Shown here piece after piece: positions 6,839 to 34,223 of a stretch of DNA of 34,223 nt. The position numbers were made by a program, and so were the translations under genes. The DNA comes from a virus. Positions within the stretch are counted from its first letter, which is position 1. Each line of letters opens with the position of its first letter. The stretch covers positions 1 through 34,223 of the IMG/VR virus record IMGVR_UViG_3300017732_000027, one strand, 5' to 3'. The notes below the pieces were generated by a model, which saw only the letters and a list, made by a program, of their open reading frames with translations, made no database searches and was not told the origin of the DNA.

Positions 6839-6847
6839 TTATTTTTT

Positions 6848-6985
6848 ATGGCAGTCTATTCGAATACAAACCTATTGAAGGAACCTAACCCTAAAAAAAC
6901 ACGTCAAGGGATGGGAAAACATAGCAAATTAAGTGCAACTTCACGTAATCAAAAGCGTAAGAGGTATCGAGGGCAAGGAAAGTGA
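6848..6985 (+). CDS. 45-residue basic protein conserved in cyanophages
   Basis: A short, strongly basic protein: M-A-V-Y-S-N-T-N-L-L-K-E-P-N-P-K-K-T-R-Q-G, then G-K-H-S-K-L-S-A-T-S-R-N and a K-R-K-R-Y-R-G-Q-G-K tail. From memory, near-identical small proteins (K-L-S-A-T-S-R-N and Y-R-G-Q-G-K motifs) lie in the structural region of many T4-like cyanophages. The role is unknown; the charge suggests contact with DNA, RNA or an acidic protein surface. It is bracketed by two CTAAATA boxes, so it may be transcribed as part of, or separately from, the baseplate genes. No Shine-Dalgarno sequence is evident. Confidence 0.65.
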   Translation: MAVYSNTNLLKEPNPKKTRQGMGKHSKLSATSRNQKRKRYRGQGK

Positions 6986-6992
6986 CTAAATA
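6986..6992 (+). promoter_or_regulatory. CTAAATA box, candidate late promoter for gp25
   Basis: An exact second copy of CTAAATA, directly after the stop of the 45-residue gene and 28 bases before the gp25 ATG. A TATAAT follows a few bases on (6997-7002). The matching sequence, and a spacing to the next ATG similar to that at 6811, argue for a phage late promoter driving gp25, gp6 and the giant gene. Confidence 0.5.
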
Positions 6993-7019
6993 GACATATA
7001 ATGTCAATATTAACGCTTA

Positions 7020-7427
7020 ATGGCGTATCGGTTTAACGCAGAAAGAAATTTATCACGTCAATTCCGTGACCTCAGTATAGGGATGAAAGCAAACCCCAAT
7101 ACTGAGGATTTTTCTATTGTAAAGAATCAGAATGCTATTAAGCAAGCGATGAAAAACCTTATCCTGACAGGATTTGGTGAGAGACCATTTCAACCAACTA
7201 AAGGATCTCGTTTACGTCAGATGCTTTTTGAACCTTTTGATGTGTTTATGTCAGAAGAACTTAAAGAAGAGATGTTTAACGTATTAAAGACTTTTGAACC
7301 TCGCATCGTGGTTAATGAAATAAGAATGATACCTGGTGAACCAAATGAACTAGAAGTGGAAGTTGATTACACCATTGTAGGAGAGACCCTCATACAAACT
7401 GTTGATTTCTTATTGGAGAAAGTATAA
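7020..7427 (+). CDS. 25: Baseplate wedge protein gp25-like
   Basis: A 135-residue protein of the GPW/gp25 family, which forms part of the baseplate wedge and nucleates sheath attachment in contractile tails. Visible family features: S-I-V-K-N-Q-N-A-I-K-Q-A-M-K-N-L-I near residues 38-55, T-G-F-G-E-R-P-F-Q-P with the conserved G-E-R, then G-S-R-L-R-Q-M-L-F-E-P. Length matches T4 gp25 (132 residues). The stop overlaps the next ATG by one base (TAATG), the normal 25-6 gene order of T4-like phages. Confidence 0.93.
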   Translation: MAYRFNAERNLSRQFRDLSIGMKANPNTEDFSIVKNQNAIKQAMKNLILTGFGERPFQPTKGSRLRQMLFEPFDVFMSEELKEEMFNVLKTFEPRIVVNEIRMIPGEPNELEVEVDYTIVGETLIQTVDFLLEKV

Positions 7428-9520
7428 TGGCAGCAATTCCATCCAATTTAACCTCGTTAGATTTTACAGAGATCAGAGAATCTATTCGATCATATCTAAG
7501 AACAAGAGATGAGTTCACAGATTATGATTTTGACGGTTCTGCTGCATCATATCTTTTAGATGTTTTATCATATAACACTTATTATGCTTCATTCACCGCT
7601 AATATGGCGATGAACGAGGCTTTTCTCGAATCTGCGACTATTAGAGATAACGTTGTTAAAATTGCAAAACAATTAAACTATACACCACGTTCTGTAAAAG
7701 CACCAAAAGGATGTGTGCGATTTGCAGTACAAACTACTGTAATTGGTAATAGCACAGACTATCCTAGTAGTGTAACTATGATTGCAGGTGATGTATTTGT
7801 TTCTACAACTGCTGGACAGGGATATACATTCACATTGCCAGAGAATTTAGTTGCTACTGTTGATCAAGCAACTGGAATCGCAACATTTACACAAGTTGTG
7901 ATCTATCAAGGTAATACATTAGAGTATGAGTACGTTGTAGAGGACGTTAAGAAGAGAACATATCTAGTTCCATCAGATGCTATTGATACTGACCTATTAA
8001 AGGTCTCTATTGCACCTAACGCACAGTCTGAAGAGATTGACACATATAACTTAGTAGAAAATATTGTTGATGTTGATGGAACTACTCGTGGTTACTTCCT
8101 TGAAGAGACTGATGACCAAAGATACAACGTAGTTTTTGGTGATGGAGTTATCTGTCGTCAGTTAATTGCAGGTGAGGTTATTAAACTTAAGTATGTGAAG
8201 ACTGAAGGAACTGCTGCTAACGGATGTAAGAGATTTAGCTTCATTGGACGCATTCAAGATTCAACTGGTCGCTTTGTTGCTACATCAAATGTATCATTAG
8301 TGACCATTGACGGTGCACAAGACGGTGAGGACTTAGAATCTACCCTATCGATTAAATTCAACGCTCCTAGGGCGTTTAACAGTCAAAACAGGGCAGTTAC
8401 CGAATCAGACTATGAATACATTACCAAAAAAGTCTATCCTCAAGCAAAAGCAGTAACTGCTTACGGTGGAGAACGCTTACAACCTCCTGTTTATGGAAAG
8501 GTATACATTTCAATTAGGACTAAATCAGGTGCTTTACTTAATACCACAACTAAAAAAAGAATCAGGACAGATTTACAAAAATATTCCATCGCTGCGATTG
8601 AACCAGTTATCGTTGACCCAATTACCCTCTTTATCAGACCTAAAACTTGGGCATTCTTTGACGGTAATAAGACTACACTATCAAATAATGAAATTGCGTC
8701 TAAAGTTCTTGGAGCTATCGATCAGTACAATTCTCAAGCAGAATCAACTCGATTTAATGGTCGTATTGATATCTCTGCTTACCAAACGATGATCGATTCA
8801 TCAGATCCTGCAATTAGTGGTAATGTCACTCATATGACATTGGGTATGAACGTTGCTGGATTTAACTTTGGTCAAACATTTACTCAATGTATTGACTTTG
8901 GTAATGAAATCGCTAACCCTAACGATCTTTCAGGAGCAGACAAAGGGGGAAGTGGTACTGGCACAGATAACGGAGGTACTTGCACACCTAAGTATTCAAG
9001 TGTTAAGAGTGGTACATTCTATGCAACTGGTTATACCGAGAGTCTTCTCGCATTAACTGGAAGCACAAATGGCAATCAGATATCTTCTGCTTCTCTAATA
9101 GAGAATGACACTTCTGCATTCCTTCCAGTGAATATTCGTGATGATGGTTACGGAACTCTAATTTTGGTTACAAAGGTTGACGAAACAGAGACTGTACTGA
9201 AAAAGAATGTAGGAACTGTAGATTATAAGAATGGACAGGTATGTTTAGGACCTATCGATGTAGCAAGTACACCTGATGGAACTAATAGAATCCCTGTTAC
9301 CGTGATACCTGCATCTAGTAACATAGACGTAGGTCCTGGCTTAGATCCAGCAATCTTTAACCCAACTGTTCAGTCGATTGATTACACGATTGATACAACA
9401 AATGCTAAAACATTTGACCCATTTGACTTTACTCCTATCAACTTCGATGGTAGTTCTATAAATATCATTGATTATCCAACCACTGTATACGAAGTACCAG
9501 AATTTAATTCTTGCTTCTAG
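7427..9520 (+). CDS. 6: Baseplate wedge protein gp6-like (baseplate J family)
   Basis: A 697-residue protein; T4 gp6 is 660. The N-terminus (F-T-E-I-R-E-S-I-R-S-Y-L-R-T, then Y-L-L-D-V-L-S-Y-N-T-Y-Y) and the following N-M-A-M-N-E-A-F-L-E-S-A-T and L-N-Y-T-P-R-S segments are the typical gp6/baseplate-J opening; the central F-G-D-G-V-I-C and S-E-S-D-Y-E-Y-I-T-type region (here T-E-S-D-Y-E-Y-I) fits the same family. After a glycine-rich linker (about residues 505-520) comes a beta-rich C-terminal domain. Gp6 dimers clamp neighbouring wedges into the baseplate inner ring. GGAGA upstream, inside gp25, serves as ribosome site. Confidence 0.92.
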   Translation: MAAIPSNLTSLDFTEIRESIRSYLRTRDEFTDYDFDGSAASYLLDVLSYNTYYASFTANMAMNEAFLESATIRDNVVKIAKQLNYTPRSVKAPKGCVRFAVQTTVIGNSTDYPSSVTMIAGDVFVSTTAGQGYTFTLPENLVATVDQATGIATFTQVVIYQGNTLEYEYVVEDVKKRTYLVPSDAIDTDLLKVSIAPNAQSEEIDTYNLVENIVDVDGTTRGYFLEETDDQRYNVVFGDGVICRQLIAGEVIKLKYVKTEGTAANGCKRFSFIGRIQDSTGRFVATSNVSLVTIDGAQDGEDLESTLSIKFNAPRAFNSQNRAVTESDYEYITKKVYPQAKAVTAYGGERLQPPVYGKVYISIRTKSGALLNTTTKKRIRTDLQKYSIAAIEPVIVDPITLFIRPKTWAFFDGNKTTLSNNEIASKVLGAIDQYNSQAESTRFNGRIDISAYQTMIDSSDPAISGNVTHMTLGMNVAGFNFGQTFTQCIDFGNEIANPNDLSGADKGGSGTGTDNGGTCTPKYSSVKSGTFYATGYTESLLALTGSTNGNQISSASLIENDTSAFLPVNIRDDGYGTLILVTKVDETETVLKKNVGTVDYKNGQVCLGPIDVASTPDGTNRIPVTVIPASSNIDVGPGLDPAIFNPTVQSIDYTIDTTNAKTFDPFDFTPINFDGSSINIIDYPTTVYEVPEFNSCF

Positions 9521-9536
9521 TCTCTAAAAACATAAG

Positions 9537-12500
9537 ATGAAGGCTATTACAATATCAGATAGGTTGCAGGATCAAATTCCTGCATTCATTAAAGAAGATA
9601 ACGACCAGTTTGTCAATCTTTTAACGCAATATTATAAATCTCAAGAGAAATCGGGTCGTCCGTACGATGTTTTAAGTAACATACTGAGATATACAGATAT
9701 TGGTTCGGGAGAATTTGACCCAAATTTCCTTTCTTCTACCTCTGCTGTACTAGAAAGAGTAGATCCGACACAAAAAACTATAATTGCAGAAAACGTAAAT
9801 TACTTCCTCGAAAATGATGGTACAATTAAGATCGATGAAGAAGTCATTTACTATGACAAAATTACACACTCTCCTGACATTGTTTTCACGCCTGGTGTTG
9901 ACAAAGCCGAATTCGATAGAAAAATCCAAGAATTCGAACCAATTTCTGATCAATTTGATGGTTCAACAACGCTATTTCCTTTAAGGTTACTTGGAAAACC
10001 TGTAACTCCTCAAAGTTCACAACATCTTCTTGTTATTGTAAATAACGAGTTTAAATATCCAGATGTAGACTATTTCCTTGAAGGAGATAAGATACGTCTT
10101 GTAAACCCCCCAGAAACCCCTACAGGACTGCTTACAGGTGCTATCAATACAGTTCGTTACCTAATTGGTTACACAAGCATTCCTGTACGTTCTCTGGACA
10201 CCATTACTGTTGCTAATGATGCTAAAGAATTTGAATTAAAGTTAGACGGATCAAGTTATACTCCATTATCTACTGTATCTTCTATAGTTGTTGTTAATAG
10301 AGTAGAAAAACGTCCATATGAAGATTTTACAATATTTGAAAATAAATTAATCTTTAAAGAGGATATTGGTGAAAATTCTGTTATCGCTATTCGTTCAATT
10401 GAACTTATTGCACCTGAATTTGGTGGTGGTGCGAGTGCAGTTGCTCAAATTGAAGATGAGAAGTTAAAATCAGTTATTGTTAAGGAAGGTGGTAGTGGAT
10501 ATCGTTTAAGTTTCGCTCCTAAGATTAGTGTTGCGTCAACTAAGGGTACTGGGTTTGGTGCTACTGCTGAAGCACTTGTTAATGGTATTAAAGAGACTCA
10601 ATTACTATTTGCAGGACAAGGTTACGCTTCAAACAATACTCCAGTTGTTATTGTTGACTCACCTGCTGACCCTGAAGGTAAAACTGCTCAAATCCGTGCA
10701 GTTGTTGATGATTCCATCGAAGGGGTCTCACAACTCATTGTAGACAGTTCAGGAAGTGGTTACGATAGGATCCCATCGATCAAATTCCAGAATCCTGGTG
10801 GTGCAACCATTAGTAACCCAACGTTAACTAACGGTGTGATCGATCCTGATTCAATTACTGTCACAGATGATGGTTCAGGATATACTACTGCACCTCTTGT
10901 GTATTTGGATCTTCCAACAGGTGACAATGCCATAAGAGCTAACGTTGTTGCAACAATTGATGCATTCGGGCGTGTTAATGGCATTACAGTCGTTTCAGGA
11001 GGACAAGGTTACACCAGTGTTCCTAGAGCACGTATTATTGATCCTGTAGGTGCACAAATACTTGATGTCAATGTAACTGCGGGTAGAGTTACTAATATTG
11101 AACTATTAACTGGTGGTGCAGGTTACACAGACGCTCCATCGGTGTATATCGTTGATAATAGGAAGGATATTACTGGTGCACCAGCTGGTGGTACTGGAGC
11201 AACTGCTGTTGCAACCATATTCAACGGAGAGATTACTGATATCAATATAACCAGTTTTGGAAGTGGATACTCAGAAACAGAACCTCCTCAAGTTTTTATT
11301 GCTGCTCCACCTGCACCTGAAGCGTCTTGTGACGTTGGTTTTGGTGAAATTACTGGATTTACGATCCATAGTGCAGGTTCTGGATATCAACCATCTGCAT
11401 TTGTTAACTGTAAGCGTGGTGTTTCTAGCACATCTTCATTTGATCAGAAAGGAAACCAAGTATACAGTACAGAAGCATCTACAATTCAATCTTCACACGA
11501 GATTGGAGGAGTCATTCACAACCTAGATACACTCTTTGCTAAGGAATTATACAGAAGGTACGTAAATCAATATCTACCAAATGCGGAAATTGACTATGAA
11601 AAAGTAAATGCTCCGCAGATCATTAAAACTATTTCGGATTTTTACGCATCTAAGGGTACAAAGATCTCAACACAGTACCTATTCAAGATGCTGTTCTCTG
11701 AGAATGTGGATGTATCTTATCCAAAAGATGAGGTTATTAAACCATCTGCTGCATCTTGGAACGTAGATACAGTCCTCCGTGCTGAACTTATAGAAGGTGA
11801 TCCTATTGATTTACTTGATTCACAGTTAATTCAGTATGTGGATGACGTAGATAACTCTGTTAAGGGTGCATCTGCACTGATTGAGAACGTTATTGCTATC
11901 AATACTGGTGTAGGAACTGTATATGAACTTGCTATATCTGAGGAAACACTACAGGGTTCATTCACTATACCCTACAAAACAACTCTTGTAGAATCACTTA
12001 ACACTACAGAATCAATCATTACTGTTGACTCTACGATTGGTTGGCCAGAAAGAAACGGAACTATCCGTATTAATGATACTGAGCAAGTACAATATAAGGA
12101 AAAGACACTTAACCAGTTCATTGAGTGTACACGTTCTAAGAATGGTGTTGTTGAAGATTGGGATGCGGGAACTGTAATTCACTCTGATATATTTGTATAT
12201 TGCAATCGTGGAACCAATACTGAGATTAAATTGCGTGTTTTAGGTATTGCTGATGCAAAATCCACCGTATTGACTGATACTGGTTCGTACTACTTACCTG
12301 GTGATAAATTAAACGTTGCATCTCTAGGTTCTACTGCTACAGATCAGCGTATCACTTCTTGGTTGTATAACGTTAAGAAACTGATAAACGTTACTGATAT
12401 TGTACCTGGCGGACTTAATAACCAGACTGCAACCGTAACTTGCTCTAATAAGCACGGTCTTCTTGTTGGTGACACTGTTACCATCTACGGTGCAAACCCA

Positions 12501-15500
12501 ACTGTGTTCAACGGTACGTTCCTAGTTACTTCACGTATTAGTGATTTCCTCTTTGAATACAATATACCTGCACCAGCAGATGCTGCTCCACAAGGTAATA
12601 TCCTCCTATCTGTTGACTTGAATAAAGGTAAGTCTACAGAAGAAGGTATCAGCATTGCAATTAGAGACTTTACTACAAACGTACAAAATACATTCTTTGA
12701 CGATACACACTCATACATCGCTTCTTCAGGTATACCGAACTATCAGGTAGGTCCTTTCGTAGGTTCTGCACTGTTACCAGGTAACCAACGTAAACTTATA
12801 CGTATACCACGTGTCATCAATACAATAAGTAAACGTGAACAAACAAGTTTCGGTCCTATCGGAGCCTGGGTGAACGGAGTTTCTGCCTGGTCATACAAGT
12901 CTGAAACAAAAATTAAGTACGGTGGTGTTATAGACATCTCCATAACAAACGTTGGACAGGGATATGATGCAGCGAATCCTCCTGTTATTGAGATTAGTGG
13001 AGGAAATGGTACAGGTGCTGCTGCTAGTGTTGTTGTAAACGGAGCGTTAAGTGAGATTGAAGTTACTTCTGGTGGTACTGGTTATACTTCTAGTCCTCTT
13101 GTTTCTATCGTGGGTGGTAACGGATTCGGTGCAACTGCTACTGCTGTTATTACAAACGGTGTAGTTTCTAAGATCTTAGTAGAAAACCCAGGTCAAGGAT
13201 ATACATCTCAACCTGATGTGTCTATTTCAGGTGGTGAAGGAACAGGTGCAACTGCTACTGCTGAAGTTCGCGGACCTATTCAGTCTGTAAGTATTGACAA
13301 TGCAGGTTCATCTTATACCGCATCTCCTACTATTAAACTAAATTCAGGTGAAGGTGCTGTTGCACAATCAATCATTATTAATGGTCGTATCGTTTCAATC
13401 GCTATTATTGCAGCAGGTCGTGCATATACTACTGCACCAGAGATTGTAATCAATGGAGATGGTTATGGTGCTGTGGCAAGAGCTACAATTGGTACAGTTG
13501 GTGAAGATAGAGGTAAGGTTATTGGTGTTACAGTTGTAAATAGAGGTATAGGATATACAACAGGTAACACAACGATCCGATTGGAAGCAGTCGGTGAGAT
13601 GGCGACATTCACTGCAAACGTTTTTGAGTGGACACGTAACCTACAAGATGAATTAGGACAATCCTTTGATACAGCACGCGGTTATGTGTTTGCAGGTTAC
13701 AACACTCAGTATGGTGGTGAATATGCTCACGTATCTGATCCAAAACAGCTCCGTTACGTCTTAGGCGATAATGTCTTCAAAAACCAATCGACTCAACAAT
13801 TACAAGAACTTGCTACTGGGTGGTTACATTCTCCGATTCTTGGATGGGCATTCGATGGTAACCCCATTTATGGTCCTTATGGTTACATTGATGCTACCGA
13901 CCAGTCTTCTGGTGTACGTCGTATTAGAAGCTCTTATAAGATTAAGGATGTCTTAATCTATGACGCTGCAACTAACCCAACTCCAGTAAGAGCAGACGGA
14001 CCTCTACTAAGCAACTATTCAGCTGGATCATTTATTGAAGATTATGAATATACTTTCCAATATGGTGACTTAGATCAATATAACGGGCGTTTTTGTAAGA
14101 CTCCTGAATTCCCTGAAGGCATATATGCGTACTTTGTGTCTATCGATGCATCAGATGCAGGTAATCCTATATTCCCATACATATGCGGTTCTCAACTTTA
14201 TTCTAAAGCAGATGAGTGGAACTACAGTCAGAATGCTGTTCAAACAAATATTCCATTAGGTGTTGTTAGATTTAGAGATCCATATGAAGATGTTGACATC
14301 GATATTGATCGTCAACCAAACCAAGATACTGATATTCTTGTAACTGAATTTGGTGAGGAACTTATCTTTGAAATTGAAGATACAAACCGTGATGGTGTTA
14401 TCAATAATTTAGAAGATAGTACACCTATTAATATTGCAGAAGAACCTGTACTTCAGTTATTCGATTACTATCCTAAAGTTTCTACTAGATCAGAAGTTGA
14501 TATTGACATTGAAACTACGACTAAATTTGAGGATGCTCAAGTTGATGGATTTGTGGTAGAGAATCCTGGTATTTCTTATAAAGTAAACGATAAACTATAC
14601 TTTGATAATACAGATACAGAAGGATTTGGTGCTTCTGCTAAAGTTGACTCAGTTAAAGGTCTTTCAATATCTGGTTATTCTTCATATATGGCGAATGATA
14701 TACCTTATGGTCGTATCACTACTCCTTCAGAACACGAATTGCGTATTGGTGATGAAGTTATCGTTACCAGTAATCCTATATTAGATTCTACAAATAAAAC
14801 TTATAGAGTTAAAGTTATATCTGGTGTTGAAGAATTAACAATTACACAGAATGGTGTTGGTTATTCTTCTGAACTACCTCCAACCTATGAGTTGATTACT
14901 GACACAGGACAAGATTTCCAACTTTCTCTGGTTAGAACTGATGCAGGTGGTGTTTCACAAGCAAATATTATCAACTCTGGTTCTGGATACAGTGCTTCTA
15001 ATCCTCCACAGATCAGAGTATCACATCCACAGAGATATAAGAAAGCAACTTACTTCTTATCCTTTATTAAAGAAGCAACTGGTATTCTTTCAGTAAATGA
15101 CGTTAGAGTCGCTGATGACCGTACTATCTACGTTGTTGGACAAAGAGATATAACTGGTGGTGATACTTGTGGTGTTCTTGCTAAGTTCAACAGTGATGGT
15201 CGTTTACTTTGGCAGAGAACCTTAGTTCCTACAGTTCCAAATGCTAATCCCAAGTCACTAAAATGGAATTCACTATATGTCGAAAACAGCAATCCTCATA
15301 ATATCTACGTTATTGGTGAAACTGTTCCTAATATTACTAACTTAACTCATAACCCAGACGTTATCGTTGCAAAATATACTTCAGGATTTGATAATGCAAA
15401 CAACCCTGATGGTATTCTTCAGTGGCAACGTGATATTGCAGGTATATCTGGTGCTACAAGAAGGGACTATGCTACTTCTATTGCTCTTGATCAAGATGGA

Positions 15501-18500
15501 AGAGTAATGATAGGTGGTTATACAGACTCTAACAGTTTGTATGCTGACGATATGTGGGTTGCTTTACTTGATATCGATGGATCTATTATGGAGAAGCGTA
15601 AGATCGCTTCTAGTGCAGTCAGTGAAAGATTACATCAGTTAAAGTGGAAGTCTACAGATAGATTCCTTTTTGTTGGTATTAACGAACCAGATAATACCTC
15701 TGACATCATTATTGGTGAAACTGTCTATGATAGTGCAACTATTGAATTAGCTTGGTCTAAGAAGATCACTAATGCATCTTACAAGTTTAAGAATCCAACA
15801 TTTACTATTGATGAATATGGTTCTGTATATGTAACTGCTACTGCTGTTAATACTGATGGTAAGAATTATGGTGTTTTATATGTAAAATTTGACAATGACG
15901 TTTATACTTCTACCATACACCAAAAGATCTTTGTACCAAGTGGTACTTATCAGAGTTGTGAGAATGGTGGAGTTAAATTTGATATCTTTGGTAACGTTGA
16001 TGTATCTTGTTCTGTACAGGAAGATTTCAATGCTGCTAAATCTGTAACTCTAAAGGTAGGTTGGAACACAGGTACCGCTATTAATTCTACAGTTCTATCA
16101 GAAACAAGTGGTATTGGTTTCAAACCTGTTGCAGTATCTAATGATAACTCAGGTGATACTATTGTTGTTGGTAATAAAGTTGAATCTGACCAACTTGCAA
16201 TCTTTAACTGGGATACTGCTGATAACTTATTTGATGAGACATATAATGACACTTTAAAAACTGGTACAAACAAACAGTGGTATGCTACTGGTAACGCTGT
16301 AATTGATGACACTAAGAAATTTGCTGGTGCATCTTCTATTAAATTAGATGCTGCTAACTCTCTTGCACTTCAGTATGGATCAGATGTAGCAACCAGTTGG
16401 ACTATGGAGGGATTCTGGGCACTAGGATCTACTCAGTACGCTGCTGCTAATACAAAACCAATATTCTATACATCTACTGATAATGCAGGTAACGTTGTTA
16501 AATTTGGTCTTGATGCTGATCAAAGTAGTCCCAACTACGGTAAATCATTTATAGACATCTCAGGTACAACTACATTCTCTGCTGCATCTGTATACTTTGC
16601 TGTACTTAATAATGAAGTATTCATTCACGTAGCAGCAGTTAAAGAACGTGTTGGAGTTGGAGATTACAAATATAGATTCTTTATTAATGGTATTGAAACA
16701 CAAGTTCTTACAAGTACCACAATTGATGTTAATTTAAAAGATGCTAGTGTGGGTCCTGATGGAACACCTGGTTCAGTCAATAACTGGATTGGTTGGATTG
16801 ACAACATAGTCATCTCACCGACCGCCAAGTATGTTGAAGCGTTTACTCCCCCTGATACACCGATTCTTGGTTCTAATAGTATCAGTAAAGGTTTCTTATA
16901 CAAGGTTGACAAAGATAAAACACAGTTAGGATCATTTACTCTTAACGATGTTGAATCAGGACATCAGATAACTCTTGCTTCTACATCTGCATATACATTC
17001 AATACTCAAGCAGTAACGCTGAATCCTTGGACAATAGGTCCCGCTGGTATTCAAATCCTTGACTATGGTGATGTAGTAGCACAGCACGTACCTGGTGTAT
17101 TTACAGTCACATCTACAGATCAGTCTTACGCTAATAAAACTTCTACTATTCCTACACCAGGTGGTAAGAAATTACTTCTTACAACTACTGTTGTACCAAA
17201 ATACTACTTCAAGGATGCAACATATACACAAATTGACCTTGTTAAGACAATATCATTTAATCAACCAGCTACATTCACTAAAGGTGCTACATTACAACAG
17301 TATTCAGTGATTGGTGGTTCTGATGTTATATCTGCGTATGGTCAAATTGTTGAAGTAGGAGCTAGTTCTGTCAAGATTGGTAAGATTATTGGTACATTTG
17401 ATAACACAAAACTACTAAAATCAACTGTTAATGACATAAATGAACTAGAAAGGAACTTTACAGAAGAAAAAACAGAAACACAATGGGCAACTAACTTCAA
17501 TTACACTGTTGGAGATGTAGTTTATAACGATAAAAAACTCTATACTGCACAAACAACTGGTGTTTCAAGTACAATTGCACCTGTACATACAACTGGAGTT
17601 GTTTCTGATGGTGCTATTAACTGGGCTTATACCTCAGCATCAGGCATATATGTTGTAGATCTTGCAAATACATCTTATAATGGCAGTACATTAGCAACAT
17701 TTGCTTCTTGGAAAGCATTCTCAGCGTCTGATTACACTATTAAGATTGAAGAAATCTATGATGACTCCAACTTTATTAAAGGAGACACCATTGATGCTGA
17801 TGCTGTCAACCTACAATTTGCTGTTGATGCTACTGGTAAGATAGCAACCTTCACTGGACTGCTTGGTGTTAAGAAGATATCTTTAATTGCAAAACTTAAT
17901 AAGGACGTAATTCCTTCTGGATCACTTACAAACACTGATTTAGTATATTGTTCTGCTGCAAGTAGACATAATTTCGAACTTAATGACATTATATTCACTG
18001 AAAACTTTGGTACTAATGATTATAATGGTTCATTCTTCGTAGAAGAGATATTTAATTCTAGAGACTTCAGTTTCCGTCTAAGAAGCACTGCTGTACAAGA
18101 TCCTACCTTTGCTGGAACTGGATCTTCAGTAGCTAACGTCAATATTTACGCTAAACATCCTAAATTCCTCTTTGTTAGAGGTCATCAGTACATTTTTGAC
18201 CTTGATGATGCTTCTAACTTAGGATATTACTTGTCATTCTCTAAAGATAACCAGTATAAACTGGAATATCCTTTCATTAATATCGTTAGAGAAGGTACAC
18301 CAGGTTTCACTGATGATGATTCACCAACTCCATTGGTTAAATTTATCATTAACGAAGACGTTACTAATATTTCATACTACTTTGACCCTTCTAGAACAGG
18401 TGCAAACTCTCCTGTTGGTGAAGGATCATTCATTGACGTTATAACTTCACCTTATCAAGGTACATTTAGAGTAACTGGTACAAGTAACGGTGGTAAAACA

Positions 18501-21500
18501 TTCGACTTCAGACTATTAAATGAACCAGAAAAAACTACTGGTGCTGTGGGTAATGATGAATTTGGTCTTCCTCGTTCTACTTACTCAACAACATCAATTA
18601 AGGCTATCGGACCTATTTCCGCTATTAAACTGGTAAATCCAGGTGGATTCTATCAGAAACTACCAATCGTTACAGATATTGCTTCTAACAGAGAAATTGA
18701 AAAGGTTAGAGTTACTAACGGTGGTACTGAATATGTAAATGGTGTCTATTATAATGTTCCTATCTCTGGAGACGGTGAAGGTGCTATGTGTAACATCACA
18801 GTTACTGATGACGGTGACTTTACTGGTGTTATAACTGATGTTACTTTAACCTCAGCAGGTAAAGGATATAAAACTGCAACTATTGATGTAGATGCTATAC
18901 CAGGTATTTTAGGACCTCTACTTGCAGGTTCTGGTGCAGTACTAGATGTTGTGATTCCTGATGAAGGTTCAGGTGCATCTGTATTCTTACAAGGTAAATC
19001 AATTGGTAAGATCAAGAAACTTAAGAACAATGAATTTGGTTTCGGTTATTCTCACGACTATACACTAAAACCTGAAATAACTTTCCCTGTAAACCTTCAG
19101 TTGTTTAATACCGCTTTACTAGCACAAATCAAGATAACTGACCCAGGTTCTGGTTATACTTCAACACCTGCTGTTGTAATCGAAGGTGGTGGTGGTTCTG
19201 GTGCTAGTGCTGAAGCAATAGTTAAGAACAACAGACTTTCCGAGATCATTATTAAAGATCCAGGTGCAGGTTACAGTTCTGAACCAACAGTTACACTTAA
19301 ATCAGAATTTAACTACGTTGTTAACGTTGATTTAGGATATCTACAGTTCAACTTCCCACACGGTATAACAAACGGAGCAGAAGTAACATTAAGAGCAGAG
19401 GATCTTGGATCTACAGTCGGTATTCTACCAAAACCTAGTTCAGCAGGTTTGGTCAGTCTATCTTCTTCCCAGACATACTATGCTATTGCAGGTCAAGCAA
19501 ATGGTCTTGAATCTGATCAGTTACGTATCTCTCTAACACAGTTAGATGCTGAATCTGGTTCTTACATTACATTCCTAACACAAGGTGAAGGTAGACAGAT
19601 ACTTCTTACTGAGGTATTTGGTGGTCAAGCAACTGCTATCGTTGAAACTTCTAGATTCCTTGCAGGTGAACTTGTTTATCAAGGTACTTCACTTCAACTT
19701 GCATCTGCTACAGGTTATGTTTCTACTAACGAAGGTTGGCAGATCGGACCTAGAATCCTTAAACTTGAAAACTATGACGGTGTATGGAATCCTGGTGAAA
19801 GAGTAACTGGTGAGGTATCACGTGCTTCTGGTTTGATTGATAACCTTTCTATTGCAAGAGGTACACTTGAAATTGCATCTCTAACCAATACACCAGGTCA
19901 GTTTATCGATGACGTTGGTAAACCATCTGAAATTGTTCAGAAGATTCAAGATAGTTACTTCTATCAGAACTTCTCCTATGTTATTAAGTCTCAAACACCT
20001 ATTAACCAGTGGAGAAAACCTGTACTAGAAACAAACCACCCTGTTGGATTTAACCTATTTGGTGAACTATCAATCACTGGTGGTAAGGATATATCTGGAA
20101 GAAAGGTTGTATCTGACCTTATTAAAGAAGTTAATATTAATAGTTTCACTAATATTAATAAAATTACATCATTTGCTAACGCACAACCAATTTATACTCA
20201 GTTTAATAACACTGAAGTCTTATTCAGACAGAAGAGACTTACTAACTCTGAGGAAATTCTAACTTCTATCGTTAAGAAATTAGATGATATTTCTGAGGAC
20301 TTTGATGGAATTAGAACTCAATTCCCTCTTAATGTAGAGGGTGGAAGTATTACAGCAGCAGATAATCAGATGTTTGTCTTGATTAATGGTGTTGCACAGT
20401 CTCCTAGCGTAGCATTCTCAACTTCAGGACCTTCAGTTGTCTTTACTGAAGCACCGAAAGCACCTTCTAGAATTAAGTTTAGAAAGGTTACACTAGCACA
20501 AAAGATAATCACAAGACTAACATTTAGTAGTATTGGTGGTATTTTCCCATTACTAGGCAATACAGTTCGTGGTATAGTTTCTGAAGCAACTGCAACTGTA
20601 ATTGACTCTGGTACTAATTACATTGACGTTATTGATGGAGAAGGAACTTTCCAAATCAATGAAAATGTTCTTAATAGTGCCACAGGATTTAACTCTGTTC
20701 TTAGCGATGTTTCTCCTCAAACTTCTAAGACTATCTACGAACAAGGTGAAAGAATTACTAACCTACAAGGTAAGTTTGCTGTTATTGAAGAAAATAACCT
20801 AGATGATGGTACTGTTACTAATTTACTTGTTGTTTCTCGTACATCTGGTACTGCTGAGTTTGAAACTGGTGAATTTGATTTAGGATTTAACGATATAATT
20901 TATTCAGCACGTTCTAAGATTGCAGCAACTATTCAGTCTATTGCACCTTATCAGGATGAGGTATCTAATCAAATTATTGATACAGTTGATCTATCTCCTT
21001 CATCTTCCTTCTTTGGTCTTGTATTCCAGAGGGTTCCTTCAATTACTTTCCCGAACGTTATCCTTGATAATATTTCAGAGACTGTTATTAACCCAACTGA
21101 ACTTTATACTGAAACAGTTAATAACCAAGACTTCCTAGACTTTGAGAATGTACGTAACCAAGAGGTTAGACTTTATAACCAATCTGGTACTGCATTTGTT
21201 GCTGGTGATAAATTACGTCTTAAGAAACTATACTTTGGTAACTCTTCACTAAGAAGGGGACACGATGTACGTACATTTAACGCTGCTGAGGCTCTAACAC
21301 GTAATGCAAGATTTATTGCAGAAGAATCCGTGGGAGCAATGTTGGCTTTCTACCCCTCCTTTAGCATTCAAACTGGAAGAAACGCAGATTGTGAAGATGA
21401 TATCGTAGATGCTCTTACTATGATGGCGTGGCAGTTAGAGTTTGATGGTAACTCTGAAGTATTTGATATTGCTAATACTTACGTTCAAGGTGGCGGTGTA

Positions 21501-24500
21501 TATCACGTAGATGGTGAAGTACCTCAAACTGTTTACGCAATGGAACAGGCACGAGATCTAGCGATCAAGTGTATCAATATGGTGACTATTAATACTGTAC
21601 ATACTTCATTACAGCAATGGAAAGATTTAACCGTTACTGGTGAGTATAGTGTTACTGATAACTCTCACGGTGATGCAAGAACAATGATTCTTGCTAACAA
21701 GTGGTATATCGCTCACGAAGCATTGTACTATGCTAAACAGCAGAATCCTGGTTATACAGTATCTGGTGGAGATGAGCATTGTCTTTCTGATATTGTTGAT
21801 GTTCTAGAAGCATTAGGATATAACACTGCTCACGGTGGTAATGACTTTGTATATGAAGCAACTGATAGAATTCTTCATTATGGTGTTACTTCTGGAGACA
21901 GAGATACCATCGTAAATGCGATGACTAAAGCCAGAGATATGGCAATCGCTGTTATGAGAAATACTGCTGTTGCAAAACAAGATACTTCACACGGTTGGAC
22001 ACAGTTTACTGATGCAACTCTAACTGCATCACTTGAAAGTCCACTTTGTGCAACAGTTGAGGCAACAATAACCACGTTGATGAATTTACTGATTAATGCC
22101 CTCGGTACTACTGCATCACCTGGTACAAGAGCAGCATTCTTAGCTGGTCAAACTAGAACAGAACCAAGTACAGCACTATTATCAGTTCCTGATGCTAATG
22201 CTTGTGTAAACCAGACATCTGCTATTACAAACTACTTCAGAATAATTACTGATACATTACAGGATCCTACAGGTGCTGATAAAGTAACTTATCCTTGGTC
22301 TACAAGTAACTTACAAAGAGTTGCACCTCCATACTCATTTGTTGACACTGAAAATCTTAAATCTATTAAGCACGCTTATAAAGATAAGTCATCTGGTGGA
22401 TTCTTCGTCTTTGGTGAGACAGTTACAGGTATCACATCTGGAAACACTGCTGAGATCATCGGTTCCAATGCAGGTAATAAGTGGATCTATACTAAGAACC
22501 CAACTGGTGCATTTACTGCTGGAGAATACATTACTAATAGTCTCTTAACTAATACTAATGTAGTTGTAGATAACTTAGATTATGCTGTTGGTACTGGATC
22601 ATTAGAATTTAACGGTAGTGCATACTTAACATATCCTGCAACTGAAAATGTTGCTTTTGGAGATGGTGCTGGTGCTGCTGGTGACTTTACTATTGAATTA
22701 TGGGTCAAGGTTACTGCTGTTAATACTAACCAAGTTCTTATTGACTTTAGAACTGCTGCTGGTTCTACAACCGAAGCATACTTAATCATTGTTAATAACA
22801 CTGTTCGTTGGAACACAGGTAATGTTGATAGAATTACATCGTCTGCTAGTTTACAAGCAAATACTTGGACACATATCGCTGTAACACGTAACTCTGGTCT
22901 AACTAGACTATTTGTTGGTGGTTCAAAAGAAGGTGTTGATTATACAGACGCTACAAACTATGGCAATATGCCAGTTAAGATTGGTGCGAACGTTGCTGGT
23001 TCTCTACCAATGACAGGTCATATTGAAAACTTGATGATTAAGAAAGGGATTGCTGAATACAGTTCTAGCTTTACTCCAAGTGCAACATATGATTCTGGAG
23101 ACTTACGTCTAACATTTGGATTTGATGGTGAAGCACCTATTCCTCTTATTAAAGGTGAAATTTATGCTACATTCCAACAAACAATAACATCTCAATGTTC
23201 TGCTGATGGTGTAGAACTATGGCGTGATGAGATTATGACTGAAGAGATTGATCTTGCTCGTGATACTTATAGAGATTGTGCAGATATAATTGAGAAGAAT
23301 AAGTATTGGATTGCTGAGGAAGCTATCGGAAGAATGAAGGCGAAGTATCCTGACTTTATCATTCCTGGTGATACTGGTATATCTGATCAAGGTACTAAGA
23401 CTTGTTTAAGAGATACTTACGAATATATTATACCTGCTATCGTTGCTGATCTTAAATACGGTGGTAACTATAATACTATTGTTGCAGGTAGAGGATATCT
23501 TGCTAACCAACAAGGTCAGTTAGCACACGTTAATGGAGAACTTCTCCAGTCCATCTATGCTTGGAGAGAAGTTGGTAAGTTATGTAATACTGTTATCACT
23601 GCTAACGCTGATGATCTAACTGGTGTATATACAACTCGTATTCGTGTTCCTAATTACTTTGCATCACCAGCCTCCAGTACAATCACTACTTACATTAGTG
23701 ATATTATGGATGATCTTCTTGATGTTCTAGGTCCTACAGGTCACAGATATAGAGACGGTGCTGATCTATTGTACTTTAATAGAAAGGCAATCGCTGAAGA
23801 AACAGTGATGTGGTTGGAAGAAAAATACAACATAATGATTGGGTTTAATACCGCAGATAAACTCACTATACCTGGTGGATCTGTAGGTACCAATAAGTGT
23901 ATTCGTGACTTGAGAGACCACATTATACCTGCGATCTCAGGAGATTTACTTACTGGTGGTAATGCTAATATTCAAGGAATTATAGATTCTTATTTAAGTT
24001 CATCTGATAATATTTCTTACGTTGAGACAGAACTACTACCAATGCTTGATGCTATTGGTTATGCTAAGTGGTTAATGGAGAAAGCATTACAGAACTGTTT
24101 AGTTGGTAGATCTGAAAACGTCGCTAATATTACAGGTATGACTCCACTGACTATAGATGATCTATTCCAGTTGCAGTATACAGACATTCCAGTATTCCGT
24201 AAAGAAGTTTCTGCTGATGACAACTTTGCAGAGCAACCTCTTGATCCTCAGATATATGCAGGATCACAACGTGCTTTAGATGCTGCTGATCTAATCAATA
24301 CTAATAAGAGAGCGATTGCTGAGGAAGCAGTTGACTTAACAATCAAAACAGAAGCATTCAAACATTATGGATTTAGAGTTCCTGGTGGAAAGGTTAATTG
24401 TGAAGATGATATTGTTGATATTCTAGAAGGTGTTGTTCACGATCTTAGATTTAACTCTAACTCTAAGACTTACGATGCTGCATTATTGTATCTTGATTCT

Positions 24501-27500
24501 GAGAATGGATTGAAGCACGTTAAAGATCAACCTGCTGAAACACTCTTTGCTATGAAGATGGCAAGAGATATGACAGTTCTCGCGATTCAGAACCGTCTTG
24601 GATTTAAACCATATGCAACATATGCTCCAGCTGGCGGTGGTGCTACTGGTGGAGAGGGCTTTGCTGGCGGTGGTGCTATTGTAGAACCACGTGATACTTA
24701 CTACGAAAACGCTTCTGGTAACAAGGCATATAATGCTGCTGATGAGATTAGAAATAACTTAAGATTCATTGCTACCACTGCTGTTGGACGTGCTGTACAG
24801 CAGTATCCTTCACTAGCATTTGGTGGATATGGTTATCAGTCTTGTGTTGATGACTGTGTTGATATTCTAGAGTCATTAGTATTCAACTTATCACACGGTG
24901 GTAATAACAAGATGTGGTATGCCACTGAGTTTTATATCACTGATGCTAATGCTATTCAACACGTCAATAACCAAGCAGCTGAAGTTAAGTACGTATTCGA
25001 ACAAGCACGTGACCTTGCTATTGCAGTAATGAGACAGCAGTTGATCACAACTAACGGTTATACCGAAGGTGATGCGATCTATGATCTTGATATTACTATT
25101 GACCAAGCAAGTGGAACTGCTAAACATACACCATCAAATGCAACTTATAATCCTAATACTGGAGACTTAGTTCTTACTATCACTGGTTCTCATTCAATTA
25201 CTACAAGTGATACTCTTAGAATTGATACTAATTCATTAGTCTTTACTTGTGATCAAGATGATCATCAAACTTTACACCCATATCCAAGAGCAACTGATCC
25301 TGCTGCATTAGCAATTCTTCCTATTACTGCTGTAAGTGGACAGGATATTACAGTCAATGTTGGTATAACACAGAGAATTAACTTTGATGCAAAGGATTCT
25401 ACTTATGATCCTGAGACAGGTCTATTAACTCTTGATATTGGATCACACAATCTAAGAATTGGTCAATCACTTAAGATTCTACAAGATGAACTACTATTCC
25501 GTTGTTCACAGGATAATTACAGAACTATTCATAAGTATCCTCGTATTACTGACCCAGTAGTTGATAAAGCAATTGATATTGAAGCTGTCGGGACTACATT
25601 CCATACTGCTACATTTGCTTCTTGGAGACCTGACAGTGCGTTCTTAAGTATTACTATTCCTAATCACGGATTCAAGAATGGTGACAGAGTTAGAATCTCT
25701 AATCATTCTATGACATTCACTTGTTCTATGGATCAGCATTATAGTAAGAAGACTTATCCAAGACTTTCTGATGCTGCAAGTGGATTATTCCTACCAATTT
25801 CTAATGTAACTAGAAACAATTTTGATGTGAACATTGGTAAGAGTCCTATCAAATACTTCACACCATCTCAAGCAAACTACAACCCAACTACAGGTGCACT
25901 AGAACTTATTCTTGGAAACCACGGTTTGACTGCTGGTACTCACATCAAGATAGCAGATAACTCTCTAACATTCACTTGTGATGAGGACGATAACGCTACT
26001 TATCACACATACCCAAGAACACAGACTGTACAGGTTACTCCAACAGATGCTTCTTACAATCCTGTTAATGGTCACCTAACAGTTACTGTTGCTAATCACG
26101 ACTTTAAGGTTGGTGAGTTTGTTAAGGTTGCTGAAAATGGAATCGTGATGACTTGTGATATGGACGGAAATGCTTCTGAGCATCCATATCCACGTAAGAA
26201 GGATCCAGCATATGATTCTTGGATGGAAATTGCAGCAATATCTACAAACACATTTACATTTAAGGTTGGAGAATCTCCTCAAATAAGTTTCACACCGACA
26301 GATGCGGTTTACACCCCTACTACTGGTGATATGAAACTCACTATTGGTACTCACAATCTACAAGCTGGTACTGCATTGAAGATTGAAGAAAGTGGAATCG
26401 TATTCAGTTGTGCACAAGATAATCACGCTACAGAGCATCCTTATCCACGTAGTACTATTCTTACTGCTCCTAATATTTCCAACGCTATGTATGATCCAGC
26501 GGCTGGTTTATTAACAGTAACAACTGCTGCTGTTCACGGCTTCACAGATGGCGATAAAGTTAAGTTTGCTGATAATGCTATTACATTCACTTGCTCAATG
26601 GATAGTAATGCAACAAATCATCCATATCCAAGATCAACTGACCCTGCATCTGGTAAGTGGTTAGAAGTTGATGTAACTAGCACAACTGAGTTTACTTGTA
26701 ACGTAGGTAGGACACCTAGTGTTGTATTCGATCCTTCAATGGTCGTTTATGATCCTTCTACAGGTATTATGGTTATGACCATTGGTGCTCACGACTTAAC
26801 AGTTGGAACATCTGTAAGAATCGCTAATAATTCAATTACATTTAAGTGTGCTCAAGATAACTACGCTACTGATCACTCTTATCCTCGTTCTACTGACCCA
26901 TTCTATGATACTTCTTGCCCAATCACTGCTGTTACTGACACCACAATTTCAGTACAAGTTCTAAGTACAGTTCCATCTACAAACGTAACTGCTCATACTT
27001 GGCAACCACCTGCTAAGTTGACACCAACTAATGCAACTTACAACCCAAGTACAGGGGTTATGGAAGTTACTGTTGCTAATCACGGTTTAATGAATGGTGA
27101 GCACATCAGAATCGATGAAAATGCTTTCACATTCACTTGTAATCAAGATAGTAATGCTACTAACCACGCATATCCAAGATCAACTGACCCTGCATACCAT
27201 CAGTTCTTACCAGTTTCTAACGTAACTCAGAATACATTCCAAGTTACTGTTCTTGCTGTAACACCTTCTACTAATACTACAACTCACGCATTTGTAAGTG
27301 CTGTTTCTGATAGCATTACTAGAGGTGTTGTGAGAAGCGGTGGTATTTACACTCACGCATTTGTAAGTGCTGTTGCTGGATCTCTTTCATATAAGAAAGA
27401 CCAAGCATTTGATTCTTCAGTTACTATTAAGCACGAAGGTACTCCTTTAACTCCTACAGGTGCTTCTTATAGTGGAACTACTGGTATTTGTCAGATTACT

Positions 27501-30500
27501 AGCAACAATCACGGATTAATTGATGGTGATTATGTCAAACTAAGAGATGGTGCATTGACATTTACTTGTGCTGAGGATAGCAATGCAACAAACCATCCTT
27601 ATCCAAGACACACTGATTTAGCATCTAATAAGTGGTTAAAAGTAACTAACGTCACTCAGAATACTTTTGACATTCAAGTACTATTCTCTATCCCATCTAC
27701 TAACCAAACTGCTCATTTATTTGTTTCTGGTTTAACTGATGGAATCGTTAAGAAGGACGATACAATTACTGTTAATGTTGGTGCAACTACTGCTGGTAAC
27801 TACGAGCATAAGTTCTTATATGCAGAACCTGCTGCAATCAAGACTGGTGGTAATTACAACCACGTATTTAAGTCAGCGTTGCCATATTCTATTACTAAGT
27901 CTAAGGATCCATCATACAGTAATGTATTGACAATCGATGGTGCAACTTCAACTTCAATCACAGTTAATGTTCTTCCAGCAGTACCTTCTACTAACGAAAC
28001 ATCTCATACATTTATTTCTGCTTCCAATAATGCTATTACTACTGGTGGTCAGTATGTTCATAAGTTTATTGAAGCACAACCTGATGGTATTGAATTAGAA
28101 TCTGGATCAATTACAGTTAATGTTGGTACAACACCTGCTGTATTCTATAGTGTTGCTGATGCAATCTATGATGGTGAAACAGGTGATATGGAACTTATGG
28201 TTGGTGCACACGAACTTCTTGAAGGAACAAGTATCAAGATTCACGATAATGCATTGACATTTACTTGTGATATGGATGATCACGCTTCTGAGCACGTTTA
28301 TCCTCGTTTAACTGACCCTGCTGCAAACACTGCTTTAGTAATGAAGGAAGCAGGTTCCACTTCTCATACTGTTACTGATGCATCTTACAATACTATAACT
28401 GGTGATATGACCTGTACCCTTAATGGTCACGGTCTAAAAACCTCAAGAACACTCTCTCCAACCTTTGCTAAGTTTGATCCTACAACAGGTGATATGGAAA
28501 TATATTCAGTTAATCACGGTATTACTGATGGAGAAAGTGTCAAACTTGCTGATGGTGCTGTTACATTTAGATGTGCTAAAGATCAATTCAGTTCAACTCA
28601 TCCATATCCAAGATCAAGCGATCCTGCATCTGATCAATTCCTAGTTGTTAAACACGCTTCTCAAAATAGATTTACAGTTAACGTTGGTACTGGAGAAACT
28701 GGTGGTGCTATCTCTGACCAGAGTGAGCATAGATTCCAAGCATCAGTTCCTAATAGTATTACTGTTGCTCCTAATATGGTTAAGTTTGATCAGGATGCTA
28801 TTACATTCACTTGTACTAAAGATAGTAATGCTACTAACCACGCATACCCAAGAGCAGATGATCCTGTAGCTGGACATTGGATTCCAATTAAGGCAGTAAC
28901 TACAAACACATTTACTGTTAATGTTGGTGTTTCAACTGCTGCTGGAAACTATCCTCACACATTCGTCAGTGCAACTACTGGTGGAATGAAACTACAAACT
29001 GGATGGGTTAAGGTTAACGTTGGTTCTACACCTTCTACTGGGTTTGATCCTGCCACTGCGAGTTTCAACGCAATCACAGGTATTATGACTCTTGGTTTGG
29101 GTAATCATTACTTCAATAGATTTGATAATATTAGAGTACAACCTGAGTCATTAATATTCACTTGTGGTTTAGATAACAATGCAACGAATCATCCATATCC
29201 TCGTTCTACTCTCATCGAATCTACTCCTAGTGATGTAGATTATAATCCTTCTACTGGATACTTAACTATCACACAGAATAATCACGGATTCTCTAATGGT
29301 GATTTTGTAAGATTCAAGGAAAACGCATTCACATTTACTTGTGATATGAACGGTAATGCTGATAATCATTCATATCCTCGTACAACTGATCCAGTTTATG
29401 ATAAGTGGGTTACAGTTGAGAGTGTTCAAGCAAATACCTTTAATGTATTTGTAGGTAAGACACCTACTACTGGATTTGAACCATATGCTGTAGATTATAA
29501 TCCTTCTACTGGATTGATGAAGATGACTATTGGTGAGCATAAGTTTACTACAAGTCAGAGCATTCGCATCGCTGCGATGTCATTGAACTTCCGTTGTGAT
29601 CAGGATGGTCAAGCTACAGACCACTTATATCCAAGATCTACTGACCCTCTATATCAAACTTCAGTACCTATCTCTGCTGTTGACGATACAAGTATTACTA
29701 TACAAACTCTTGCATCTGCACCTTCAACTAATATAACCACTCACGTTTGGCAACCTCAAGTTGGTATTACTCCTACTGGTATTGATTATGATCCTGTGAC
29801 TGGAATGATGACAGTTACTTGTTCTAATCACGGATATAACGAAGGAGATATGGTTAAGTTTGCTGAGAACGGAATTACATTTACTTGTGATAAAGATAGT
29901 CACGTTTCTGATCACCCATACCCACGTAAGACAGACCCTGCTTGGGATAAGTGGTTACCAATTGAAACTGTAACTGGTACAACATTCAGAGTTAAAGTTC
30001 TTGACAATGTTCCTTCCACTAATATTTCTACTCATACATTTAAATCTGCTGTTGCTAATTGTATAACAAGAGCAACTGTTAGAGGTGGTGGTGTTTACAA
30101 TCATACTACTGTGTCTATTGCTTCTAATAGTATGGAGCATAAGAGAGATCCATTCTATCAGAGAGGAATCAACATTGATCAGGTTGAAGAGACAACTCAT
30201 ACAGTAACCAATGCTTCATACAGTCCATCATCAGGTGTGATGAGACTTACAATACCTAATCATAATTTCACTGCTTCCACATCTCATACTGTAACTGATG
30301 CTCTTTATACACCTGCTGACAGTATGTTGAGATTGACTATTGCAGGTCACGGATTCAAGGAAGGTGACAGAATTAGAATCGCTGATAATTCTATTACATT
30401 TACTTGTGATCAAGATAGTAATACTACTAATCATTCATATCCAAGATCAACTGATCCTGGTAGTGGTGCTTGGTTAGTTGCAACTAAGGTAAGTACAAAT

Positions 30501-33500
30501 CATTTCCACGTTAATGTTGGTAACTTCTTTGGTAGAGGTCCGATTTCTAATCAGACAACTCACTCATTTGTATCTGCAACTGCTAATGGTGTAGAGAAAG
30601 CAAATGATAAAATCAAGATGGCAGAAAACTCAGTTACATTTACTTGTGCTAAAGATGATAATGAAACTCTCCATCCATATCCTAGACAAAATGATCCTGC
30701 ATACAACGAATATCTACCTATTTCTGATGTAACTACTCACGAGTTTGATGTATTTGTTGGTCGTGCAAACTTAGATCAGACTGTTCATCAGTTCTACTCT
30801 GCAACAGATAACGGAGTTACACATCCTACTGGAAATATTACAATCAACGTTGGTATTTCTTCTAACACTACAACTCACAACTACGTTACCACTACTACAA
30901 CTTACGATATAACTGGAGCGACCTACAGCCCAACTACAGGTGTAATGACGCTGACCATTCCTAATCATAAGATGTATGTGGGTGAGTACATTTATCTTGC
31001 TGATGGTGCTGTTACCTTTAGTCAAGGTGCTTTACCAAATTCAAATGATGAAGTAAGTGGAAGAATGATTCGTGTACAAGGTGTAATTTCTGATAACCGC
31101 ATTCTTATTGTTTACGGAACTAATAGTAATACTGCATCTTGGTCATATCAATCTGCTACTGCTGGTGCAGTTACTAAACCTAAGATTCTTGGTGGTGGTG
31201 TTTACAATCACAAGTATGTTAGTTCTACTGGTATGGCAGTTCGTGGTGGTGGACATTATACTCACCAATTCGAAGGTCCTGCTAAGACAACTGTTACTGA
31301 CGCTGCATACAATCCTACTTCAGGTGTTATGACTGTTACAGTTCCTAACCACGGTTGGGAAACTGGAGATGGTGTTATTATCGATGACGATTCTATCGTA
31401 TTCACTTGCACACAAGATAGTGGTGCTACTGAACATCCATATCCAAGATCAAAGGATCCTGTAAGTCGTCAGATTCTTACAATTTCAAATGTAACTACTA
31501 ACACATTTGATGTACAGGTTCTAGCAACCACACCTTCTACAAACACAACTACTCATACATTTGTAAGAGCAACTAAGCACGGTATCAGAAGAGCTGCTAT
31601 TCACACTGGTGGTGCTTATAATCACATCTTTGTTAGTTCTACAAATGATTCTCTAACATCATATGTTGGTGGTGGTGCTGCTCGTTGTCAAAACGAAGCA
31701 TCTGCTATTACTACATTAATGAATATTCCTATCAATCTATTTGGTAGTGGATCAGCTAATCCAAATACTTACATAAGTGGTATTACTAGAACTCTACCGA
31801 AGGAGTGGCCACTAACAGGTGAACGTGCAATTCAACGTGATATTTCAATCACATATGATAGTGGATCTGGTGACTGTGCAACTGAAGCATCTACAATTAG
31901 TACATTATTTGGATACTTAATTAATGTTATTGACACTGCTTCTAAAGGAAATGGTAACTACTTTACTAACCAATCAATAACAAGAAACGCACCTGCTCAA
32001 ACTAATACACTTCTTGCTGGTGGTGGTATTTGCTATAACGTAGTTTCTGCTATGTCAACATTGGCAGACTTGTTAGAAGATACTCTTGGACAAGCTCCTG
32101 AAATGTATCGTCAAACTGCAAGACTACTATTATTGAATGACACATACGTCAGACGTGAATCATATTATAAGACAGTACAAACTTACGCAGGTTATAACGG
32201 TGACGAAGATTTCGGTGATTCAGTACGTAAAGCATTTATTTATGACTTACTCACAGACGGTAATATTGCAACAATCGACTTAGTTAATAGTTGGTTTGAT
32301 GCCGAGGGTAATTTCATCGCGTATCCTGGCATCTTCAGGACACAATTAATCTTCCACGCAGACGCTGTTAAAGAAATGTGTGTCAAGATTATTAAACAGA
32401 AAGCAGATAATCCTGGTGGATATAACCAAGAGATTCCTTATGAGAATAAGGAGTATCGTCCTACTGAGACTGCTGAACACAAATTACATCAACTATATCA
32501 TATAATTGACGTTGCACTTAACCGTTCTACATTCCCATCAATTTACTTGAAGTTTAACTTTGATGTTGGTGCTCAGGTTAATCAGAATGGTTCACTTGAT
32601 GCTCCTGATGGACACAACTTCGAAGCATATGATCGTGTAACTTATACAGTTCTTGGTACTGCTATTGAAGAATTAGATCGTACAACTTATATCATTCACC
32701 CAGACACATCAGAGAATCTAATCTGGTTGGCAGAAGAGATTGATGGTGAGAAACTTACCGTACTATCTCCAGGCACACCTGGTCAGACTCACCAATTATC
32801 TGTATCTGATGAGACTGGTATCAATAGAGTTCCTACAACTTACGGTACACGTAATGTTCCTACACCTATTACTGGTGGTATCAATACTGCTGATATATTC
32901 TTCGGTGAAACTTCAGGTGCATATGGTGAAGTTATTAGAATCCAAGACAACTTAGCAGATATTCTATACGCTGTTAAGTGGATGCCACTCACACGTACAA
33001 GTGATCCTGAGACATTTGTTAACGGTGAAGAAGTTGTTAAGACTGGTGCTACTGGTAACAAAGGAACTATCCTCGCTACAGACAATGCAACATATGTGAA
33101 GATTATTATTACTGGTGGAAACATTCAATCTGGTGATGCAATCGAGGGATCTACCTCTGGTGCTACAGGTAATATTGGATCTGATATTCACGATCGCTTA
33201 TTGATCAACATCAAGCAAGGTGATTTCATTGCTACTGATATACTTTATGCTAAGAATGCTACAAGTAAGGCAGAAGCATTGATAGTACGTAATAACGATG
33301 GTGCTCTACTTGATAACCAATCTGGACGTGTCACATTTGACATTGAATCTGTTAAAGGTCAATTCAATAGTGGCGATGTTATCTACGGTTCTGTTACTGA
33401 TCAAATCATCGAGATTGAAGGATTTAATATCCTTCCTGGATTTGGAGAATATATTCACTCAACATTCATAACAAGATTTGAATATGCATCATTAGTTACT

Positions 33501-34223: not shown

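Follow-up and report, generated by a model that had tools for sequence, protein, structure and literature searches.

The window analysed here is the entire IMG/VR record IMGVR_UViG_3300017732_000027 (34,223 nt), and its right-hand edge is therefore the end of the contig. PAAR, gp25 and gp6 genes precede a single open reading frame that starts with an ATG and runs to the last base, 8,229 codons later, without a stop (Table 1). Directly upstream of the PAAR gene lies a 1,152-aa ORF (2818-6276, +) that has no Pfam match and is assigned to phrog_22792. Closer to the start of the record, a 79-aa ORF (1713-1952, +), the C-terminal half of which resembles the photosystem II protein PsbN (PF02468, E=1.5e-10, above the cut-off), is flanked by two 2OG-Fe(II) oxygenase-like genes (1173-1712 and 1949-2482, +), the first scoring below the Pfam cut-off.

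Table 1. Features of the window, and homologues of the giant gene that occupy the same slot in cyanophage isolates.
Feature	Position	Strand	Details
gp25 baseplate wedge protein	7020..7427	+	PF04965 E=9.4e-13, phrog_261
gp6 baseplate wedge protein	7427..9520	+	PF21379 E=5e-17, phrog_219
Giant virion/baseplate-wedge gene (gp7 slot)	9537..34223	+	first 8,229 of 8,566 codons; stop 1,014 b past the edge
N-terminal 850 residues	9537..12086	+	41-51% identity, conserved in all giant Kyanoviridae homologues compared
YHYH domain	13629..14147	+	residues 1365-1537, PF14240 E=6e-30
Phycobiliprotein-like domain 1	21276..21596	+	residues 3914-4020, Cys3952 in CEDD, profile E=5e-32
Phycobiliprotein-like domain 2	21669..21977	+	residues 4045-4147, Cys4082 in CLSD, profile E=8e-29
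Laminin_G_3 / concanavalin-A-like lectin domain	22647..23039	+	residues 4371-4501, PF13385 E=5.9e-16
Phycobiliprotein-like domain 3	23271..23618	+	residues 4579-4694, Cys4623 in CLRD, profile E=4e-35; Pfam PF00502
Phycobiliprotein-like domain 4	23751..24110	+	residues 4739-4858, Cys4788 in CIRD, profile E=1e-30
Phycobiliprotein-like domain 5	24276..24608	+	residues 4914-5024, Cys4955 in CEDD, profile E=7e-34
Phycobiliprotein-like domain 6	24729..25052	+	residues 5065-5172, Cys5103 in CVDD, profile E=2e-35
Tail-fibre-like beta repeats, TFTCxxDxxxTxHxYPR	25104..31736	+	residues about 5190-7400, phrog_5342
Phycobiliprotein-like domain 7	32109..32414	+	residues 7525-7626, Phe in place of Cys, profile E=2e-26
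Homologue, P-RSM6 CPXG_00128			8,573 aa
Homologue, P-TIM40			22,056 b, about 7,350 aa
Homologue, S-WAM1			20,214 b, about 6,737 aa
Homologue, S-SZBM1_208			19,860 b, 6,619 aa
Homologue, S-RIM8			19,188 b
Homologue, P-SSM4, annotated gp7			21,939 b, 7,312 aa

An earlier note on this DNA had followed the frame from the ATG at 9537 to base 34223 and found it open, and our re-reading of the ORF agrees. The stop, for which that note had looked to flanking sequence, was reached in two more IMG/VR assemblies that carry the same gene, IMGVR_UViG_3300046387_000246 (75,493 b) and IMGVR_UViG_3300012953_004005 (30,366 b). Both are collinear with the window, the former with 13 substitutions and no indel over the 34,223 b compared and the latter with 102 substitutions and no indel over 28,235 b, and in both the stop is codon 8,567. 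The finished protein has 8,566 aa and a calculated mass of 926.5 kDa, in keeping with the mass near or above 0.9 MDa expected beforehand, and the gene that follows on the 3′ side overlaps it by one base. In the longer assembly, 5 synonymous and 4 non-synonymous codon changes separate the frame from that of the window; in the shorter, the counts are 57 and 29, and third positions account for 56 of 91 differences, a pattern that indicates purifying selection on the giant frame.

The contig is metagenomic, contains repeats and has an open end, so the frame might be an artefact, either a chance frame or repeats wrongly joined in assembly, and not one gene. The shared stop, the lack of indels in both assemblies and the signature of purifying selection together exclude both forms of artefact, as the earlier note had maintained for a chance frame. 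Annotated homologues from isolates are also collinear, and one of them has been seen in virion proteomics. We give the artefact reading virtually no credence.

The gene directly follows gp6 in a T4-like phage, as the earlier note had it, and the gp25–gp6 assignments are confirmed by Pfam and PHROG matches. The same order of gp25, gp6 and giant gene is found in P-RSM6, P-TIM40, S-WAM1, S-SZBM1, S-RIM8 and P-SSM4, and giant genes encoding 5,400-8,573 aa stand right after gp25–gp6 in the Kyanoviridae, the T4-like cyanophages. A search with residues 1-1,000 hit 477 phage records, almost all of them from cyanophages, at no more than 54% identity. PHROG 701 spans most of the chain: phrog_701 scores 3,553 bits over residues 2-2999, with more matches in later parts up to the window edge. 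The S-SZBM1 homologue (6,619 aa, 724 kDa) was detected in virions by liquid chromatography–MS with 71 peptides (PMC9146016). Given the isolate homologues in the same slot, PHROG 701 and this virion detection, the family of the giant gene is already known, and the gene is a member of it, a Kyanoviridae gp7-slot baseplate-wedge/tail structural protein. That the gene is unique to this phage is ruled out by its giant homologues across the Kyanoviridae; the slot had been thought peculiarly enlarged here, whereas giant genes are general in this family, in which such a size, though real, is ordinary. Placement in the gp7 slot held for position, whereas identity with gp7 itself was matched only weakly: when the N-terminal 850 residues were made into a profile and run against the PDB, T4 gp7 came up at E=0.0055 and 0.032, over a stretch of just 28 residues near profile positions 703-730.

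Between its conserved N terminus and the window edge, the chain is built of recognizable modules. The beta repeats occur in at least 12 copies, or 22 or so by a looser pattern, and their conserved C, D, H and Y residues suggest a metal or ligand site. A LamG-like domain sits between the second and third members of an array that, as far as the open literature shows, is undescribed so far. Residues 3914-5172 hold six helical domains of ~110 aa, in all of which Cys-x-x-Asp is invariant, and an iterated profile found seven such domains in the giant protein and 496 in the loci fetched. Across the family, one Asn is conserved at 99%, an Ile at 96% and a Gly-Asn pair at over 90%, with C-x-x-D in most members. 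Matches occur in 354 of 50,697 records, all from cyanophages except for one record labelled ‘Marine’. In BFVD, the fold recurs in further viral proteins, for the most part cyanophage proteins of structural or tail type, together with some from uncultured phages. In Syn1, S-RSM4 and S-WAM2, the domains are spread over several different genes for tail or structural proteins within one genome, with up to 19 matches in S-WAM2. No open-licence paper was found to report structural proteins of phages that contain domains of phycobiliprotein or phycobilisome type.

Sequence profiles and structure models converge on the relationship of these domains. A profile of 32 Cys-type domains, run against 177,635 PDB sequences, returned phycocyanin or phycoerythrin in all of the best 60 of 165 matches (best E=1.9e-6), and a second profile of 23 members, from which most CxRD copies had been omitted, again returned phycobiliproteins. 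Pfam PF00502 (Phycobilisome) matched 11 of the 32 members (best E=7.6e-7); on a 3,000-aa middle piece of the giant protein it scored 33.5 bits against a gathering score of 22.2, with 20.1-20.3 bits for a single domain alone. An AlphaFold2 model of domain 3 (residues 4561-4738; pLDDT 81, core above 90; pTM 0.79) gave, in Foldseek, phycobiliproteins in all of the best 50 rows, one engineered derivative among them. By VIA-align it superposes on phycoerythrin beta over the whole fold (Z 16.5, 161 residues, rmsd 3.6); the model begins at chain residue 18 and has a single long N-terminal helix. The weaker model of domain 6 (AlphaFold2, pLDDT 70) also points to phycobiliproteins at Z 11.8, a value that would not be enough by itself when the model is helical. 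The best Foldseek E-values are modest (1.8e-3 and 3e-2 for the two models), and the fold case rests on the models together with the sequence profiles. We consider it almost certain that the domains are homologous to phycobiliproteins and share their globin-like fold.

In the profile alignment, the Cys of the phage domains lines up with that of the phycobiliprotein C-A-R-D or C-L-R-D motif, and their Asp with the Asp of the motif (Asp87). The Cys of that CxRD motif, Cys84, is the site of bilin attachment. Equivalents of Cys84 and Asp87 are present in six of the seven domains of the giant protein. Among 262 distinct domains of the family, 208 have both residues, 39 have neither, 14 have the Asp only and a single one has the Cys without the Asp, with Glu in its place. 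Of the six Cys domains in the giant protein, two (CLRD and CIRD) keep an Arg86 equivalent and four have it replaced; Asp or Ser occupies this position in most of them. Conservation across the family is highest at the Asn, Ile and Gly-Asn, not at the Cys. Given the homology to phycobiliproteins, bilin binding by the domains has, in our judgement, a little less than an even chance. To our knowledge, no pigment, absorbance or bilin peptide has come from any cyanophage virion.

A second line of evidence concerns CpeT-type bilin lyases. Of 28 phages, 18 have the domains together with a CpeT-type gene and 10 have neither; in these ten, a phage CpeT profile of greater sensitivity gave no match either. 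S-PM2, Syn9 and P-HM2 are among the phages with the domains, and P-SSM2, S-SM2 and S-SSM7 among those without. In the whole collection, CpeT matches of two types occur in 124 and 246 records, compared with 354 for the domains, and the host classes of the two sets of records are nearly identical when compared by class totals. On a gp23 tree the domain/CpeT state needs one change (support 74/84), and the association therefore carries the weight of one event, not of 28 genomes; a search of that tree for independent evolutionary support found none, with one independent pair. The agreement may be mere co-inheritance. A 172-kb IMG/VR contig (G007), a gp7-slot relative with no CpeT match, was rejected as an exception because it begins next to the place of cpeT in its relatives, so that the cpeT region is absent from its coverage. 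No CpeT was seen in IMGVR_UViG_3300046387_000246, a 75-kb fragment from the phage of the window. Bilin reductase (PF05996) was tried and rejected as a co-occurring gene, since it is present without the domains in P-SSM2 and S-SSM7 and many domain phages lack it.

The position of cpeT was also recorded. It lies 1.4 kb (S-PM2) and 1.3 kb (S-WAM2) upstream of domain-bearing tail genes. In the closest long relatives of the window, the tail module contains two cpeT-like ORFs, close to an ORF of 808 aa that, judged by its N terminus, is taken for a gp5-like hub gene. This neighbourhood with tail genes adds some weight to the case for bilin binding. The CpeT-like ORFs adjoin in the IMG/VR relatives L174 (8290-9246) and L175 (7832-8546), unlike in most of the isolates tested, which have a single cpeT.

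The overall reading that we favour, with a probability of roughly 0.43, is a gp7-slot tail protein with a pigment-bearing phycobiliprotein array. Its closest rival accepts the ancestry and dispenses with the pigment: the domains would be helical spacer or oligomerization modules in a long tail arm, with Cys and Asp retained for folding or as a helix cap, and CpeT would serve host phycobiliproteins, as is usually assumed. The pattern of conservation fits such modules, being strongest at structural positions, and the Cys-less subfamily still fits the fold profile. It also speaks for them that the link to CpeT is one phylogenetic event and that, in published accounts, phage CpeT works on the antennae of the host (PMC10452541, PMC9146016). 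However, structural modules of this kind leave unexplained why the Cys is nearly always accompanied by an acidic residue three positions on, the lone Cys-only domain having Glu there, and why cpeT adjoins tail genes. We hold the pigment-free reading to be nearly as probable as the pigment-bearing one, at somewhat less than even odds.

The array could instead mimic the host antenna, binding a linker polypeptide or the thylakoid surface after injection or in assembly, or take part in receptor binding with the LamG and YHYH domains. In favour of such roles, the domains stand next to lectin-like ones in proteins of the tail and wedge, and almost exclusively in cyanophage records. However, phycobilisomes are intracellular, whereas the baseplate contacts the cell surface, and phages of Prochlorococcus MED4 (P-HM2 and MED4-213), a strain without phycobilisomes, have the domains too. 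More generally, Prochlorococcus has no intact phycobilisomes (PMC3037559). Mimicry or receptor binding seems quite improbable to us.

For the pigment-bearing reading, the following mechanism can be envisaged. At least some of the phycobiliprotein-like domains would bind a linear tetrapyrrole, made by host or phage, covalently at the conserved Cys, and a CpeT-type lyase or chaperone encoded by the phage would assist its loading onto the tail domains. The virion tail so loaded would be a chromoprotein. More speculatively, light acting through the pigment could alter the conformation or affinity of the tail and thereby make adsorption light-dependent.

Comparisons of phages in the dark bear on this last step. 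P-HM2, which has six domain matches and CpeT, does not adsorb in the dark, and P-SSP7, which has neither, infects in the dark (PMC7112961). Three classes of cyanophage dark behaviour have been described (PMC7238727), and P-HM2 transcripts were detected after inoculation in the dark (PMC5082946). Such transcripts mean that entry without light is above zero. The domains and CpeT are both present in S-PM2, for which Jia et al. reportedly found in 2010 that adsorption is light-dependent. P-SSM2, which is without domains and without CpeT, is said to adsorb in the dark without replicating, as Liu et al. are understood to have found in 2019. The phages compared are few and differ in many other ways; the link to light is a testable idea of low probability. 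A role for the array in light-dependent adsorption is speculation, and we doubt it; equally unlikely is its stronger form, in which a CpeT-loaded chromophore array would let the virion sense light or absorb its energy and would allow adsorption in the light alone.

These observations touch two puzzles. Open-licence papers yielded no molecular explanation of why adsorption depends on light in cyanophages such as P-HM2 and S-PM2, and what phage-encoded phycobilin genes are for has been termed a mystery (PMC3037559), partly because some such phages infect hosts without intact phycobilisomes. An antenna-fold array with a putative pigment Cys in the tail, near a bilin-lyase gene, is one candidate solution to the two puzzles. 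It names residues for mutation and so provides a testable lead on the light-only attachment of some cyanophages. Even without pigment, the array would represent the reuse of antenna-protein domains as parts of a virus particle.

Set against known systems, the window protein is closest to the giant gp7-slot proteins of the Kyanoviridae, which it resembles in position, N terminus, length and kinds of internal repeats and from which it differs solely in the sequence and number of its internal modules. With T4 gp7 (1,032 aa) it shares gene order and the short profile match at E=0.0055; by contrast, it is eight times longer, and no T4 counterpart was detected for most of the chain. In every phage tested, the presence or absence of the gene for a CpeT-type lyase (PF06206) matches that of the domain array, and two lineages have this gene within or close to the tail module; it is a separate gene outside the window, and the array is the putative target of its product. 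With phycobiliproteins (PF00502), the phage domains share the fold over 161 residues, the Cys-x-x-Asp site and the Asn and Ile core positions, whereas they are ~14% identical, are arranged in tandem inside a structural protein of ~0.9 MDa, often lack Arg86 and carry a bilin that is putative.
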